From: Calditrichales bacterium MX18-03
Lineage (GTDB): Bacteria; Bacillota; Clostridia; Lutisporales; Lutisporaceae
Direction: 5' to 3'
Assembly: GCA_021083345.1 (NCBI GenBank)
Contig: JAJGRE010000002.1
Coordinates: 558,001-622,000, forward strand
DNA length: 64,000 nucleotides
Shown: positions 56,567-64,000 of the stretch, piece by piece
Position numbering within the stretch: position 1 is the stretch's first letter
Layout: the number at the start of each line of letters is the position of its first letter
Translations under genes and position numbers: made by a program
Notes under the pieces: generated by a model
The model's database searches: none
The model's input: the letters and a program-made list of their open reading frames with translations, nothing else
Told to the model about the DNA's origin: nothing

Positions 56567-58390
56567 TTAGAATTTGCTTCTCTTGGTATAAGTGGTATGA
56601 AGCAGCTCATGGGATTTATGCCCCAGCGGTTTGCCGAGGTACTCATCGTATATGCTCTTGATATCCGGATTCTCATGGGACTTTCTGAGACGCTTTCCCT
56701 CGTCCTCAGCATAGATGGCCTGAATCCGCTTCTTTCTAACCTCATCGTTGGTAGGCCTGGGCTGACCCCCGCCGCTGATGCAGCCGCCGGGGCAGCCCAT
56801 CACTTCAATAAAGTGGTAGGGGCTTTCTCCCTTCCGGATATCATCCATCAGGATGGAAGCGCCTCTAAACCCGCTTGTTGTTGCGACTTTCAGTGTGACG
56901 CCATTTAGAAACGCCCACTCTTTTTTGGCCTCCAGAATGGTCAATTCCGCTGTTTTTATCCTTTCCAGCCCCTGAATGGGCAAAACATGCAGCTTATCGA
57001 AGGGCAGCTCCCTCCCTGTAATGATTTCATATACCGTTCTCAGAGCTGCTTCCATGACACCGCCGGTTGCACCGAAAATATCTGCAGCACCGGAGGATAG
57101 ACCCAGAGGATGGTCGGTTTTACCCTCGGGAAGCGCCATGAAATGGATGCCGGCATCCTTGATCATCTTGGCCAGTTCCCTTGTGGTGATGACCGCATCC
57201 ACGTTGGGAACGCCGTTATTCACCATTTCCGGCCGCGTAATCTCAAATTTCTTGGCCGTACACGGCATGACCGAAACCACGAACATATCCTTTGGGGCTA
57301 CATTGATCCTCTCAGCAAAATAGCTTTTGCACAAAGCACCCAGCATCATATGCGGGGATTTACAGGTGGATAGGTGGCTGATCCCTTCAGGGTAATAATG
57401 CTCGATATATTTGATCCAGCCCGGGCTGCAGCTGGTGATCATCGGAAGCACCGGAACATTGTCCGACGGCTTGAAGCCGGTCTTCTCCAGCTGTTCATTG
57501 CTGATGACCTTCCCTGCGTGCAAAGATCCGACAATTCTGCCCAGCAGCTCGGTGCCTTCCTCCATGATGGTCAGGTCTGCTGTAAAATTGGTATCGAAAA
57601 CATAATCAAAGCCCATTTCCTTTAAGGCACTAACCATCTTGCCCGTCACGATGGTGCCCGGCTGGCAGCCGAACTCCTCTCCCAAGGCTACGCGGATAGC
57701 CGGCGCCGTCTGTACGATCACTGTTTTATCCGGATCCAGCAGCGCTTGCCAGATGGTCTTTGTCGAGTCCTTCTCTTTCAATGCGCCTACTGGACATACG
57801 GTGGTGCATTGGCCGCAGTAGGTACAGGATGCGGAGCCCAAGGGCAGCTCCGGCGACGGGCTGATCTCTGTTGCAAACCCTCTGAATTGGGAATTCAGAA
57901 TGCCCACACCCTGGACTTCATTGCATACCGTCACACACCTTCTGCAAAGAATGCATTTTGAATTGTCTCTGATGATGGAAGGAGAAGTTGCATCAGTGAA
58001 ATCTTTGGATTTTTCTCCTTCAAACCGTGATTCCTCTATCTGGATAAGCTCCCCAAGCTTCTGGAGCTCGCAGCTTTGGTTGCGGGAGCACTGCAGGCAA
58101 TCCCTGGGATGATCCGATAGCATCAGCTCATAAAGCACCTTCCGGGCTCTTCTGACTCTGTCGGAATTAGTCCGGATGACCATGCCCTCGCTGACGGGCG
58201 TGATGCAGGAAGCCTGCAGGTTCTTGGCCCCTTCTACCTCCACCACGCAAACCCTGCATGAGCCTAACTTGTGGACACCCTCCAGGTAGCACAGGCTGGG
58301 TATAAGTATGTTGTTCTGCTTTGCAGCCTCCAGAATGGTGGTTTCTTCTTTTACACATATCTTCTTATTGTTGATTGTCAGGTTTATCAT
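56567..58390 (-). CDS. hydA: [FeFe] hydrogenase catalytic subunit
   Basis: Catalytic subunit of a soluble NAD(P)-linked hydrogenase, 607 aa. N-terminal [2Fe-2S] ('CYLEGVHKLGSCRVCVVEVE'), His-ligated cluster ('HPRDCLQCSRNQSCELQKLG'), two [4Fe-4S] ('CILCRRCVTVC', 'CTYCGQCTTVCPVGAL'). H-cluster motifs are complete: 'TSCSPGWIKYIEHYYPE', 'VMPCTAKKFEITRPEM' and 'VMGCPGGCISGGGQP'. The small C-terminal domain ends 'LLHTTYTKR'. It is the last gene of hydC-hydB-hydA; start ATG 16 bases after hydB. The set matches bifurcating NADH/ferredoxin hydrogenases; bifurcation is inferred. Confidence 0.96.
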   Translation of the reverse strand: MINLTINNKKICVKEETTILEAAKQNNILIPSLCYLEGVHKLGSCRVCVVEVEGAKNLQASCITPVSEGMVIRTNSDRVRRARKVLYELMLSDHPRDCLQCSRNQSCELQKLGELIQIEESRFEGEKSKDFTDATSPSIIRDNSKCILCRRCVTVCNEVQGVGILNSQFRGFATEISPSPELPLGSASCTYCGQCTTVCPVGALKEKDSTKTIWQALLDPDKTVIVQTAPAIRVALGEEFGCQPGTIVTGKMVSALKEMGFDYVFDTNFTADLTIMEEGTELLGRIVGSLHAGKVISNEQLEKTGFKPSDNVPVLPMITSCSPGWIKYIEHYYPEGISHLSTCKSPHMMLGALCKSYFAERINVAPKDMFVVSVMPCTAKKFEITRPEMVNNGVPNVDAVITTRELAKMIKDAGIHFMALPEGKTDHPLGLSSGAADIFGATGGVMEAALRTVYEIITGRELPFDKLHVLPIQGLERIKTAELTILEAKKEWAFLNGVTLKVATTSGFRGASILMDDIRKGESPYHFIEVMGCPGGCISGGGQPRPTNDEVRKKRIQAIYAEDEGKRLRKSHENPDIKSIYDEYLGKPLGHKSHELLHTTYTKRSKF

Positions 58391-58405: not shown

Positions 58406-61400
58406 TTATTGCCTTCGGTCACATCGCAGGCATCTCATGGCTTCCGCAATAGCGTTCAAACGGTGAAAACCCCGTGATACTTCCTCAAAGCTGCGCTGCC
58501 GTGAGTCCATATCGATATAGTTCATCTTGAACCGCTCATGCTCAACCAGCTCGGAGTCGTCCACGGTATCCGGGATCTTGATGGGCTCGCCCTTATTCAG
58601 CTGCCCGTTGCCGCCAAGATACCTGTCAATGGCGCTTGCCGCCTTTTTCCCATCCGCAATGGCCGTGATGACCACATCGGAGCCTCTTACAACATCTCCT
58701 CCGGCAAATACGCCTGCCATGGAAGTCATCAGCGACGCATCCTCGACAACAAAAGTGCCCATCGGGGTTACTTCAACCTCATCCTTTCTGATGAAAGGAA
58801 GGTCGGAGTATTGGCTTACTGCGGGAATGACATAGTCTACATCCAGCGTAAATTCCGAGCCTGCAATCCTGACAGGCTTCTTCCTTCCATCGGAGTCAAA
58901 GCCTGAAAGCCCCATCCGTACACATTTTACCTGCCTTACTTTTTCATCACCCATAAACTCGATAGGTTCCACCAGTTCATGAATGATGATTCCCTCCTCG
59001 ACGGCATCTGAGATTTCACGTTTATCAGCGGGCATATCCTCCATCTTCCTCCGATAGAGGACATGGACTTCATTGACACCCATTCTGACGGCCACTCTGG
59101 CAGCATCTATCGCTGTATTGCCCCCGCCTATGACGGCGACAACGCCTTTGAGCTTGACTTCCTTGCCCAGGTTGACATCCCTGAGAAAATCCAGACCGTG
59201 ATAGACCCCCGGCAGGCCTTCTCCGGTAACCCCCACCTTGTGGGAGAACTGGGTCCCCGTTGCAATATAGATGGCATCATGTTTCCCTTTGATCTCATCA
59301 AAGGCCAGGTCCTTACCTATTTCAGTATGGGTCAGAATTTCGATGCCAACTTGTTTGATGGTGTCGATCTCTTTTTGGAGCACTTCCTTGGGCAGCCGGT
59401 ATTCCGGGATCCCGAATACCAGGACTCCGCCGGCAGCAGGCTGGGACTCATAAACCGTCACATCATAGCCCAGCCTTCCCAGATAATAGGCGCAGGTCAA
59501 GCCTGACGGGCCTGCCCCCACGACCCCTACCGACTTGAACTTCTTGGGAAATACCAGATCGGTGAAGGGCTCGTTATGCTTCATCACTTCATCAGCCGCA
59601 TACCGTTTCAGATCGGCAATGGCGATGGGATCATCCAACTGGCCTCTTCTGCATTTGCTTTCGCAGGGATGAGTGCATACCCTGCCGCATACCGATGGGA
59701 ATGGATTCTCCTGCCTGATAAGGTTGTAGGCATCCTTTACCCTGCCGGCTGCAATGAGCGCCACATAACCCGGTACATTGACATTTGCCGGGCATGCGTT
59801 TTCGCACGGTGAAATGAACAACTCGGAGCATACGCCGGCCCTGCAGTATTTCTTGTCGATATGCTCGTCATATTCGTCTCTGAAATATTTGATGGTGCTC
59901 AGTACAGGATTTGGCGCCGTCTGACCCAGACCGCACAGCGCCGTATCCTTGACCGCCTTTGCGATTTCCTCAAGCCGTTCCACATCCCCTGGCAGGCCTT
60001 TGCCGGCGGTGATCCTTTCAAGGATCTCCAGCATCCGCTTGGTGCCCAGCCTGCAAGCCACGCATTTGCCGCAGGATTCCTCCTGTACAAACTCCATGAA
60101 GTATCGGGCTACATCTACCATGCAGGTATCCTCATCCATGCAGATGAGCCCGCCGGACCCCATGATGGCGCCAAGCTCCACCAGGGAGTCATAATCCACG
60201 GGTGTATTCAGGTGGTCCTTCGTCAGGCAGCCGCCGGAGGGTCCTCCTGTCTGCGCCACCTTGAACTTCTTGCCCTTGGGGATGCCGCCGCCGATGCCGA
60301 AGATGATTTCCCCAAGTGTAACCCCCATGGGGACTTCAATGATCCCTGTGTTGTTGATATCCCCTGCCAAAGCAAAGACCTTCGTCCCTTTGCTCTTGGT
60401 CGTTCCCATCCCAGCAAACCAGCTTGAACCTTTTAAAATGACAATAGGGACATTTCCCAGGGTTTCAACGTTATTGATCACGGTGGGCTTACCAAACAAA
60501 CCGGACACAGATGGGAAGGGCGGCTTCTGCCTTGGTTCCCCGCGTTTTCCTTCAACCGAGCACATCAGCGCTGTTTCTTCACCGCATACGAAAGCCCCTG
60601 CTCCGATCCTAATCTCTATATCGAAATCAAACGTACTTCCGAAGATATTCCTGCCGAGCAGGTTTCTATCTCTTGCTTCCTGGATGGCATACTCCAACCC
60701 CTCTATGGCCAGTGGGTACTCCGCCCGGATATAGACATAGCCTTTATCCGCACCAATGGCATATCCCGCAATGGCCATGCCTTCCAGCACCAGATGCGGG
60801 TTGCCTTCCAGAAGGCTTCTATCCATAAAGGCACCCGGGTCCCCTTCATCGGCGTTGCAGATGACATATTTCTGATCCCCCTTGGACTTTGCCGCCAGCT
60901 GCCACTTCATGCCTGTAGGGAACCCCCCGCCGCCCCTTCCCCGGAGCCCGGATTTTCTGACCTCATCAATAACGTGCTCCGGACTTGATTCCCGGAGCAC
61001 CTTTTCCAGTGCATAATAACCTTCATTGAAAATATATTCGTCAATGGACCTGTAGTTGATCATCCCGCAGTCCCTTAATACAACCTTGTTCTGCCCTTTG
61101 AAAAAGTCAATATCCTTCATATAGGGAACCCTTTGCCCGCTGTTTCTGTTGGTATAGCAGCACTCTTCCACGATCTGCCCTGAAATCAGGTGTTTGCGGA
61201 CAATTTTCTTCATATCCTCAGGTTTCAGCTTGCAGTAAAAAACACCATCCGGCAGCACAGTCATTCTTGGCCCCACATCACAGATGCCGATGCATCCGGT
61301 AAGGCTCAGCTTTACACTTGAAGCAAGACCTGCATTTTCCAGTTCTCTGACCAGTGCATCCCTTACTTCCCCACAGCCGGAGGAAACACAGCCGGTGCCG

Positions 61401-61498
61401 GAGCAGAAAAGCAGCGTCTTCTGATACTTTGCGGACTCTTCTGTGAACTTCTTTTTTACCAATGCCAGGTCTTCCATGCTGTTTATTCTTTCAACCAT
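58406..61498 (-). CDS. hydB: HydB/NuoF-like diaphorase fused to GltD/NfnB-like flavoprotein
   Basis: A 1030-residue fusion. Residues 1-120: thioredoxin-like [2Fe-2S] ('CSGTGCVSSGCGEV', 'LTGCIGICDVGP'). 130-560: NuoF core with FMN/NADH loops ('GLRGRGGGGFPTGMKW', 'NADEGDPGAFMDRSLLEGNP') and a [4Fe-4S] ('ESCGKCVACRLGTKRM'). From about 575: 'CENACPANVNVPGYVALIAA' and 'VCGRVCTHPCESKCRRGQLD', then an FAD fold ('VGAGPSGLTCAYYLGRLGYD'), a second nucleotide site ('IGGGNTAIDAARVAVRMG') and 'GGDVVRGSDVVITAIADG'. This replaces the ferredoxin tail of standard HydB (about 600 aa). Possible extra pyridine-nucleotide entry, as in NfnL. Frame is continuous; no sign of assembly error. Confidence 0.94.
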   Translation of the reverse strand: MVERINSMEDLALVKKKFTEESAKYQKTLLFCSGTGCVSSGCGEVRDALVRELENAGLASSVKLSLTGCIGICDVGPRMTVLPDGVFYCKLKPEDMKKIVRKHLISGQIVEECCYTNRNSGQRVPYMKDIDFFKGQNKVVLRDCGMINYRSIDEYIFNEGYYALEKVLRESSPEHVIDEVRKSGLRGRGGGGFPTGMKWQLAAKSKGDQKYVICNADEGDPGAFMDRSLLEGNPHLVLEGMAIAGYAIGADKGYVYIRAEYPLAIEGLEYAIQEARDRNLLGRNIFGSTFDFDIEIRIGAGAFVCGEETALMCSVEGKRGEPRQKPPFPSVSGLFGKPTVINNVETLGNVPIVILKGSSWFAGMGTTKSKGTKVFALAGDINNTGIIEVPMGVTLGEIIFGIGGGIPKGKKFKVAQTGGPSGGCLTKDHLNTPVDYDSLVELGAIMGSGGLICMDEDTCMVDVARYFMEFVQEESCGKCVACRLGTKRMLEILERITAGKGLPGDVERLEEIAKAVKDTALCGLGQTAPNPVLSTIKYFRDEYDEHIDKKYCRAGVCSELFISPCENACPANVNVPGYVALIAAGRVKDAYNLIRQENPFPSVCGRVCTHPCESKCRRGQLDDPIAIADLKRYAADEVMKHNEPFTDLVFPKKFKSVGVVGAGPSGLTCAYYLGRLGYDVTVYESQPAAGGVLVFGIPEYRLPKEVLQKEIDTIKQVGIEILTHTEIGKDLAFDEIKGKHDAIYIATGTQFSHKVGVTGEGLPGVYHGLDFLRDVNLGKEVKLKGVVAVIGGGNTAIDAARVAVRMGVNEVHVLYRRKMEDMPADKREISDAVEEGIIIHELVEPIEFMGDEKVRQVKCVRMGLSGFDSDGRKKPVRIAGSEFTLDVDYVIPAVSQYSDLPFIRKDEVEVTPMGTFVVEDASLMTSMAGVFAGGDVVRGSDVVITAIADGKKAASAIDRYLGGNGQLNKGEPIKIPDTVDDSELVEHERFKMNYIDMDSRQRSFEEVSRGFHRLNAIAEAMRCLRCDRRQ

Positions 61499-61501
61499 TC
61501 C

Positions 61502-62014
61502 CTATACACCCCCTTTGTTGTACTTATCCAGGATGTGATGCACCTTGTTGGCATTGACTCTTTTATACACCTTGCCGTTAATGCTGATGACAGGCGCCAA
61601 GCCGCACGCACCCAGGCATCTCATCACCTCAAGGGTGAACTTGGAGTCCTTTGTGGTTTCCCCTACATCGATCCCCAGATGCTCCTTCAGCTTTTCCAGT
61701 ATTTTTTTGCCGCCTCTGACATAACAGGCCGTTCCCAGACAAACCCGTACGGTATACTCGCCTTTGGGCTTGGTTGAGAAAAACGAATAAAAGGTAACGA
61801 CGCCGCTGACCTTTGAAATGGGCAGATCCATTTTTTCGGCGATGAAGTTTTGGACCTCATGGGGCAAAAAACCGAAGATGGCCTGCGACATGTGAAGAAT
61901 CTGAATCAGGTTGCTTTCCTTGCCTTCATACTCTTCAATCACATCCTCCAGCAGAGCATACTTCTCCACTTCGCTTAGTTCCCGGCATCCGCATTTTTGA
62001 ATAACCTGCGACAT
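61502..62014 (-). CDS. hydC: HydC/NuoE-like [2Fe-2S] subunit
   Basis: A 170-residue thioredoxin-fold subunit. Cluster ligands in 'VRVCLGTACYVRGGKK' near residue 95 and 'VMRCLGACGLAPVISINGKV' near 135. Helical N-terminus with 'FLPHEVQNFIAEKMDLPISK' is typical of NuoE. ATG 62014 has GGAGGTG upstream; the ATG at 62035 lies before it. First gene of the hydrogenase operon, three bases from hydB; transcription probably starts from the sigma-54 promoter 54 bases upstream. Confidence 0.94.
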   Translation of the reverse strand: MSQVIQKCGCRELSEVEKYALLEDVIEEYEGKESNLIQILHMSQAIFGFLPHEVQNFIAEKMDLPISKVSGVVTFYSFFSTKPKGEYTVRVCLGTACYVRGGKKILEKLKEHLGIDVGETTKDSKFTLEVMRCLGACGLAPVISINGKVYKRVNANKVHHILDKYNKGGV

Positions 62015-62066
62015 TAAAACACCTCCACTATGCAAATACTATGTTTGTTATATAACGAACACATTT

Positions 62067-62082
62067 TGCAAGACTCATGCCG
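62067..62082 (-). promoter_or_regulatory. Sigma-54 (-24/-12) promoter of the hydrogenase operon
   Basis: Minus strand CGGCATGAGTCTTGCA: GG (62081-62080), ten bases, GC (62069-62068), against the consensus TGGCACG-N4-TTGCA (two mismatches). The gene just upstream encodes a sigma-54 activator. Confidence 0.75.
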
Positions 62083-62135
62083 ATTCACCAAAGTCCGCTG
62101 TTCAACGGTTCAGAGCGGGTTGTCCTTCTTTTCTC

Positions 62136-62224
62136 ATGCAGCAGTGCATTAAAGTTCCGCTGCAATGGGAGCAAAACGGCAAAAATAGGTAATGCAGCTG
62201 CGCATTATTAATGCACAGCTGCAT
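62136..62224. promoter_or_regulatory. Three dyad repeats, candidate enhancer sites for the sigma-54 activator
   Basis: ATGCA-GCAG-TGCAT (62136-62149), ATGCA-GCTG-CGCAT (62192-62205) and ATGCA-CAGC-TGCAT (62211-62224): 14-bp dyads of one pattern. They lie about 85 to 160 bases upstream of the expected start of hydrogenase transcription, the usual enhancer range. Sites 2 and 3 together form a 35-base near-palindrome that could also end the regulator transcript. Confidence 0.6.
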
Positions 62225-62237
62225 TGGAGGGGCACCT

Positions 62238-64000
62238 CTATTTCCTGTCTTGCAGGTTCTTCAGCTTCCTGACGATAGTGGACTGGTTGACGCCCAATAC
62301 TTCGGCTATCTTGTAGGTATTGCCGTAAGCCTTGTAAGCACGGGTAATGATCTGCTTCTCCAGCTCGGAAATGGCTTCTCTGAGCGGTACGATGCTGTTT
62401 ACGATGATCTGCCCGTGCTGCGTCTTTGAAAGCCGGTTCATATACGGCGGGATATCCTTTGCTGTGATCTCCTGATCAATAGATGTTACAACGATTCTCT
62501 CAATAATGTTCTCCAGCTCCCGCACATTGCCGGGCCAATAGTAACTGTCCAATATGGCCGGAACATCCGGGGCGAACTCCTTGCTGCAGCCATACTGCTT
62601 GTTGAATACATCCAGAAAATGATGGGCTAGCGGTATAATATCAGCTTTTCTCTCTCTCAACGGCGGGATGTGGATGGAGACCACATTCAACCGGTAATAC
62701 AGATCTTCCCTGAACCGGCCTTCATCCACCATTTTCTTCAGGTCATTATTAGTAGCCGCTATGATCCGGATATCGATCTGTTCATTTTTTGAAGAGCCGA
62801 TACGGCGCACGTTTTTATCCTGCAGGACCTGGAGCAGCTTCACCTGCAGCGGCGGAGGCAGATCCCCTATTTCATCCAGAAAGATGGTGCCGTTATGGGC
62901 CTGCTCAAAGTATCCGGTTTTACCTTCCTTTTTGGCACCTGTAAAGGCACCATACTCATATCCGAAAAACTCGGATTCCAGCAGGTTTTCCGGTATGGCC
63001 CCACAGTTCACCTTTACATAAGGTCCGTCTTTCACCGGACTCAGATTGTGTATCAGCCTGGCGATGACGTCCTTGCCTACACCCGTTTCGCCCAGCAGCA
63101 GAACCGTTGACTTGTACTTTGAAGCCTGTGCGGCCAGCTTCTGTACCTTCCCGAATTCCAGACTTTCTGCAACGATCCCTTCATAGGAGGATATTTCTTT
63201 TCCCTCCTTTTTCGGGATGTCACGCTTCAAACGGCTCAGCTCCTCAATATCACGGATATTGGTCACAACGCCGACAATTTCATCTTTCTCGTATATAGGG
63301 TTGCCGGTGGCGATAAACCGCTTTTGGTTTTTGCCTTCCTGCAAAAAAGTGACTCTTCTTTTTTCCTTCAGGGCCAGCAAGGCTGCAGCCGGTATGTCTT
63401 CCAGCCCCACCATGTTGTTCCAGGCAGAGTTGGCTTTGATGATTTTGCCAGCCGCATCGCATACCACCATCCCATCGTAGGATGACTCAAATATGGCATT
63501 CAACTGCTCATTCAGGCGATTCACGGTATCACAGGCTTCACTCAGCTTCAAGCAGCTTTGGCTTTTCTGGGAGAGCAAATAGGGGATGCACATTTCCACC
63601 TCCGCAATTCCCTGGTATACGGCAGTGGCCTTATCCCTGCAGGTCAAATAGCCGCAGGCGCCGCAGTTCAGCTCATCCTCCTCCGCAAATTTATCGATTT
63701 GGGCAAGTATGCTTCGAATACTGCCTTCATCAGGCTGGCTTAGGGGCACCATCCTATCATGAAAAGTTCTTCCCATATCGATGTCTTCAAACCTGCCGAT
63801 CGGAATCTCCCCCTGAACAACGGCCTTCCTGCCGATTAAATCCACGATAAGCTTTTGTCGTTCATGGATCAGCAGGTCATTTTCCATACCGGCGCCGTCT
63901 ATGCAGCCTCTGCAGCCCAAAACATCGTAAAACAGAAAGTCCGATGTGCCATACCTTTGAGCTTGCTCCAAATGCTTCACCAGCTCTATGCAATTGCTTA
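62238..64000 (-). CDS. Sigma-54 activator with hydrogenase-like N-terminal domain (start outside window)
   Basis: About 586 residues visible; the frame is open to base 64000, so GTG 63980 is not a convincing start. Visible part begins with 'LGCRGCIDGAG', like the last H-cluster motif of [FeFe] hydrogenases, then an Fe-S domain 'CGACGYLTCRDKATAV' (Cx2Cx4C plus a later Cys), a PAS domain ('FESSYDGMVVCDAAGKIIKA'), the AAA+ domain with 'GETGVGKDVIA', 'YGAFTGAKKEGK' and 'GTIFLDEIGDLP', and a TyrR-type helix-turn-helix ('YKIAEVLGVNQSTIVRKLKN'). It should activate the hyd promoter just downstream in response to hydrogen or redox state; the signal is inferred. Confidence 0.9.
   Translation of the reverse strand, partial: SNCIELVKHLEQAQRYGTSDFLFYDVLGCRGCIDGAGMENDLLIHERQKLIVDLIGRKAVVQGEIPIGRFEDIDMGRTFHDRMVPLSQPDEGSIRSILAQIDKFAEEDELNCGACGYLTCRDKATAVYQGIAEVEMCIPYLLSQKSQSCLKLSEACDTVNRLNEQLNAIFESSYDGMVVCDAAGKIIKANSAWNNMVGLEDIPAAALLALKEKRRVTFLQEGKNQKRFIATGNPIYEKDEIVGVVTNIRDIEELSRLKRDIPKKEGKEISSYEGIVAESLEFGKVQKLAAQASKYKSTVLLLGETGVGKDVIARLIHNLSPVKDGPYVKVNCGAIPENLLESEFFGYEYGAFTGAKKEGKTGYFEQAHNGTIFLDEIGDLPPPLQVKLLQVLQDKNVRRIGSSKNEQIDIRIIAATNNDLKKMVDEGRFREDLYYRLNVVSIHIPPLRERKADIIPLAHHFLDVFNKQYGCSKEFAPDVPAILDSYYWPGNVRELENIIERIVVTSIDQEITAKDIPPYMNRLSKTQHGQIIVNSIVPLREAISELEKQIITRAYKAYGNTYKIAEVLGVNQSTIVRKLKNLQDRK

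Follow-up and report, generated by a model that had tools for sequence, protein, structure and literature searches.

A predicted sigma-54 control region with repeated AATGCA-N4-TGCATT dyads upstream of the hydCBA hydrogenase operon

On the minus strand of the 64,000-nucleotide stretch of DNA analysed here (the window, part of contig C8 in a 4.69-Mb genome), the region between the stop codon of a sigma-54 activator (EBP) gene (ORF end 62238) and the hydC ATG (62014) is very probably a sigma-54 control region of the hydCBA operon, run by the adjacent EBP via AATGCA-N4-TGCATT dyads. As a prediction from sequence, this interpretation as a sigma-54 promoter plus enhancer is strongly supported. What can be read directly from the genomes is which parts the region has, in what order they stand and how well they are conserved, as well as the near-exclusive genome-wide position of the motif and its occurrence together with the EBP. 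In the proposed mechanism, the one-component EBP would bind the dyads through its TyrR-like HTH, as dimers or higher oligomers, and its hydrogenase-like Fe-S/PAS N-terminal part would control its AAA+ ATPase in response to a presumed signal, either H2 or cellular redox perceived via Fe-S clusters. The active EBP would then loop to RNA polymerase-sigma54 at the -24/-12 promoter, leading to promoter opening and making hydCBA expression sigma-54-dependent.

Layout of the control region and its target operon

The -24/-12 (sigma-54) promoter, CGGCATGAGTCTTGCA, lies on the minus strand at 62082-62067, with GG at 62081-62080, an N10 spacer and GC at 62069-62068, and has one mismatch to TGGCAY-N5-TTGCW. 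A GG-N10-GC promoter before hydC had been proposed in the first-pass annotation and is present; the distance given there, 54 bases, is corrected to 53 bases between the promoter GC and the hydC ATG. Three dyads (UAS) lie upstream on the same strand. Dyad 1, AATGCAGCTGTGCATT (62210..62225; core ATGCAGCTGTGCAT, 62224-62211), is exact and represents the sole exact AATGCAN4TGCATT in the source genome; dyad 2, AATGCGCAGCTGCATT (62191..62206; core ATGCGCAGCTGCAT, 62205-62192), carries one change from the palindrome; and the promoter-proximal dyad 3, AATGCACTGCTGCATG (62135..62150; core ATGCACTGCTGCAT, 62149-62136), is again exact, in agreement with the earlier description of three ATGCA-N4-TGCAT copies, one of them singly changed. 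Judged from the -12 element, transcription should start near 62056; the dyad centres are ~86, 142 and 161 bp upstream of this point, in line with the enhancer distance proposed earlier, and the UAS spacing agrees with that of sigma-54 enhancers (compared with PMC6615313). No sigma-70 promoter-like site was seen in the activator-hydC gap. Because a terminator-like hairpin also intervenes, hydCBA should depend on the -24/-12 promoter. The rpoN gene, whose absence had been listed as counting against a sigma-54 reading, is present in a single copy (PF04552 match, E 3.8e-61; C8:19103-19576).

The operon is encoded on the minus strand and begins with hydC (61502..62014), for a NuoE-like 2Fe-2S subunit, followed by hydB (58406..61498), whose product joins a NuoF-like flavin subunit to a GltD-like NAD(P)/flavin domain, and hydA (56567..58390), for the [FeFe]-hydrogenase catalytic subunit, which NCBIfam places in group A6 above cut-off. 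The window HydB contains the GGPSG signature (VAQTGGPSGGCLT) reported for bifurcating beta subunits (PMC7311640), and the earlier designation of HydABC as a bifurcating-type hydrogenase is thereby supported for the window. The domain fused to HydB in the window resembles GltD/GltA. GGPSG is found in HydB of 19 of the 22 loci screened; yet three relatives with the same control region (L059, L060 and L098) encode a short HydB without GGPSG, but have the same activator and dyads.

Several variations of the operon were observed. In L087 (G041) and L101 (G127), a ~120 aa [2Fe-2S] thioredoxin-like ORF is situated between the sigma-54 promoter and hydC, and in some other loci ORFs of similar size separate hydC from hydB. 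Both L059 (5201-5851) and L060 (8763-9413) have, directly after hydA, a gene for a Rex-like redox repressor; recognized by eye from its N-terminal sequence, it suggests a second control layer.

Motif frequency and conservation across genomes

Within the window, dyads with <=1 mismatch occur six times (5.0 expected) and promoter matches with <=2 mismatches 41 times (46.7 expected); neither motif alone is above chance, and the case therefore rests on clustering, context and conservation. The three dyads are packed within 89 bp, and CGGCATGAGTCTTGCA is the sole promoter match with <=1 mismatch in the window. Exact dyads (ATGCA-N4-TGCAT) number seven in the 4.69-Mb genome, two here and five inside ORFs, with no strict -24/-12 element within 5 kb of the latter five, and the combined dyad-plus-promoter pattern has one match in the whole source genome. 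A wider regulon in this genome was considered and rejected at the scanned spacing, as the other exact dyads lie in ORFs without a strict -24/-12 nearby. The dyad had been put forward as a motif that can be searched elsewhere in the genome; because the motif marks essentially one operon, hydCBA, such a search yields no wider regulon.

Activator orthologs were collected from close relatives, a class-wide sample and a phylum-wide sample, giving 23 activators including that of the window, with ortholog identities of 37-75% (75% in Sinanaerobacter chloroacetimidivorans, 73% in an uncultured Firmicutes). In 21 of the 23, the activator gene is succeeded by hydCBA, either immediately or across a gap. 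For G041, trkAH apparently lies between activator and operon (trkH is split over two contigs), and the dyads stay at the operon; in G127, the activator contig ends, and a second contig begins with the activator C-terminus and continues through the control region into hydC. The EBP-to-hydC gap ranges from 220 to 2361 bases across loci with the dyad/promoter set retained; for example, in L095 (G659), where it reaches 2.4 kb, the dyads adjoin hydC. Dyads are present upstream of hydCBA in 23/23 operons found (one to four each; consensus AATGCA-N4-TGCATT), so the conservation in related hyd loci that the first-pass annotation had called for holds wherever it was examined. A clear -24/-12 element accompanies them in 22 of the 23 loci and is poor in L099.

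When the regions upstream of hydC from the 23 loci were pooled, 56 sites with <=2 mismatches to AATGCA-N4-TGCATT were counted, compared with 1.55 expected from dinucleotide shuffles (maximum 6 in 200); this count is conservative, because the stretch taken from L087 did not include the three exact sites of that locus. Among the pooled sites, ATGC and GCAT cores are almost invariant, and the four spacer bases are free. Among three close loci, identity amounts to 31/36 in the dyad half-sites and 13/16 in the promoter, with 58/159 in the remaining gap.

Exact AATGCA-N4-TGCATT occurs at 21 places in 21 activator-bearing genomes, 20 of them before hydCBA and a single one outside hyd regions (G310:C42:33135), and a control pattern has zero occurrences in these genomes. 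The suggestion to look in relatives for dyads upstream of other -24/-12 promoters thus returned dyads, but with 20 of 21 exact places before hydCBA and no wider regulon. As most loci were gathered via the EBP, the dyad-EBP co-occurrence is partly by design; this does not apply to the G041 operon or to where the motif falls genome-wide. Scanning 391 Clostridia genomes for dyad and -24/-12 together, with no use of the EBP, produced 10 matches. Four precede hydCBA, one of these being the trkAH-separated G041 operon, which was first found in this way. The remaining six are G037 and G079, both of which proved on inspection to be inside ORFs, and G048, G250, G257 and G282. The reversed control pattern gave no matches in the same 391 genomes.

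The terminator-like hairpin and alternative readings

Dyads 1 and 2 also constitute the arms of a terminator-like hairpin of the activator gene (62181..62225, minus strand; stem-loop 62225-62191), which comprises a 16-bp stem and a 3-nt loop, followed by ACCTATTTTT. The arms match as reverse complements along 16 positions, one of the pairs being G-U, and RNA folding gives -29.3 kcal/mol (z -6.3). The element thus has the stable stem-loop and subsequent T-run of an intrinsic terminator, with an efficiency that is uncertain because the run begins 5 nt after the stem. Such a dyad-built hairpin occurs in five related loci (the window, L045, L046, L087 and L101), in which spacer and flanking letters vary in compensating ways. 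In other clades, adjacent dyads have non-complementary spacers, and the terminator-like hairpin is often elsewhere in the gap. Overlap between a dyad and the best terminator-like hairpin is seen in 13 of 21 loci, where sliding the hairpin predicts 5.2; as the loci are related, the P value is only indicative.

The 16-bp hairpin with its T-rich tract, the arm spacers that stay complementary through changes in five loci and the excess of hairpin-dyad overlap would all fit an alternative in which the dyads act at the RNA level only, as the intrinsic terminator of the activator gene plus chance copies, with no protein binding. However, dyad 3 of the source genome lies outside the terminator-like hairpin, as do dyads in L059, L060, L063, L094, L096 and L097, among others; the spacers of adjacent dyads are non-complementary in other clades; and each arm is itself palindromic, a property that a terminator does not need. 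Termination was rejected as the whole explanation, and an RNA-only role is extremely improbable. We take the hairpin to be a second use of this DNA within one clade rather than the purpose of the dyads. It is unlikely, moreover, that this double use is regulatory, with the enhancer pair serving also as the activator terminator and bound activator at dyads 1 and 2 blocking or altering polymerase reading the activator gene; if true, one DNA element would both set the activator level and fire the hydrogenase operon.

EBP genes need not control their neighbours, and redox regulators such as Rex have been linked to hydrogenase operons: the Rex-like gene of L059 and L060 stands beside hydA, and a Rex site is predicted for hnd (PMC10084766). 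The dyads might accordingly bind a different regulator, or an ordinary promoter might read the operon with the EBP acting elsewhere. Either variant is very unlikely in view of a motif nearly confined to hydCBA upstream regions in EBP-bearing genomes, a -24/-12 element conserved alongside it (22/23 loci), the retention of the set despite so variable a distance between EBP and hydC, and a gap in which no sigma-70 promoter-like site was seen. EBP autoregulation was rejected as well, as the 200 bases preceding each of the 12 EBP genes examined contain no dyads.

The activator, its sensor and related systems

The EBP to which control of hydCBA is attributed in the preferred reading is encoded on the minus strand, with the 3' part of its gene at 62238..64000 in the window and the remainder extending to ~64808 (GTG start), for a total of 857 aa. 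Its domain order is 2x[4Fe-4S], Fe_hyd_lg_C (H-domain), FeS (Cx2Cx4Cx16C), PAS, AAA+ and HTH_50, the hydrogenase-like N-terminus being encoded outside the window. The neighbouring gene had been assigned to the sigma-54 activator class from the window alone, an assignment confirmed by a Sigma54_activat match (231 bits), a GAFTGA motif (GSFTGA or GAFSGA in five orthologs) and a C-terminal HTH_50 (TyrR-like HTH; PF18024, 41 bits). All 23 orthologs share the recognition helix (N/D)QST(I/V)V, paralleling one near-invariant DNA motif. The activators FhlA, NifA and TyrR are alike in their AAA+ sigma-54 activator type and C-terminal HTH of the HTH_50 family, but have other sensor domains and another binding motif. 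FhlA controls formate hydrogenlyase, not HydABC.

All 23 activators retain eight N-terminal, four H-domain and four FeS-domain cysteines. The proton-transfer cysteine (C299-equivalent) is absent from them, with P, A, S, T or M at that position, and the third H-cluster motif is CxxC in 23/23 orthologs, a shared one-residue deletion relative to the Cx3C of the window HydA and 12 other homologs with a readable motif. The predicted EBP structure (mean pLDDT 88), in which residues 1-356 match [FeFe]-hydrogenases with Z ~30-34, confirms the hydrogenase fold and says nothing on the cofactor. A Cx2Cx4Cx16C motif together with PAS is the layout of group C putative sensory hydrogenases (PMC8163306), and the EBP displays this HydS-type arrangement of two N-terminal [4Fe-4S], H-domain, Cx2Cx4Cx16C and PAS; because its third motif is CxxC and not Cx3C, the sensor is called HydS-like here rather than a group C member.

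Both H2 sensing and redox sensing are possible, as the proton-transfer cysteine is missing and the third H-cluster motif is shortened. With regard to the signal alone, it is conceivable, and somewhat doubtful, that the EBP, like HydS, has a complete H-cluster and truly senses H2. The full HydS-type layout, the four H-domain cysteines in 23/23 activators and the alignment of the predicted model with solved [FeFe]-hydrogenases (Z ~30 to 34) would be in keeping with such a sensor, whereas the invariant CxxC may misplace the bridging cysteine for the [2Fe] subsite, and there are known cases of H-domains that carry a [4Fe-4S] cluster alone (PMC9304861).

Clostridial sigma-54 EBP regulons (Nie et al. 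2019, PMC6615313) similarly feature a one-component PAS-containing EBP beside a single target operon and several UAS sites upstream of a TTGGCAT-N5-TTGCT-type promoter, and Fe_hyd_lg_C and FeS are listed there among EBP domains. Unlike the present case, no hydrogenase operon is among the Table 1 targets, the commonest UAS type is TGT-N10-12-ACA, and AATGCA-N4-TGCATT is absent from the main text. HydS-type putative sensory [FeFe]-hydrogenases (group C/D; TmHydS, TamHydS, R. albus HydS; PMC8163306, PMC13104023, PMC5707799) share with the EBP sensor two N-terminal [4Fe-4S], the H-domain, the C-terminal Cx2Cx4Cx16C, PAS as in group C and the lack of a C299-equivalent, and are often encoded beside group A hydrogenases. 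The sensor described here differs in its CxxC third motif and in being joined directly to a sigma-54 activator with its DNA-binding domain. The output of HydS proteins is a topic of PMC5707799, PMC8924675, PMC10084766 and PMC13104023, the available portions of which describe no sigma-54 activator fused to a HydS-type sensor. Sigma-54 control has been reported for NiFe hydrogenases in Proteobacteria (PMC12316311). Neither the present target nor the motif turned up in the open literature searched, an earlier description being possible.

HydS sensors have long been proposed as H2 reporters to the cell, with an output that is either indirect or unknown. In the present case, a HydS-like sensor forms one protein with an activator that has a predictable motif and essentially one target, the HydABC operon, which makes it directly testable whether a hydrogenase-like protein senses H2 or redox and sets hydrogenase expression.

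The source genome encodes five further H-domain proteins (L017-L021; E below 1e-20 to the sensor part), including L017, which is HydS-like with Cx3C intact. In addition, a gene for a methyl-accepting chemotaxis protein with a Cache domain (L009 10990-12561, minus strand) is located just outside the window, directly upstream of the activator gene.
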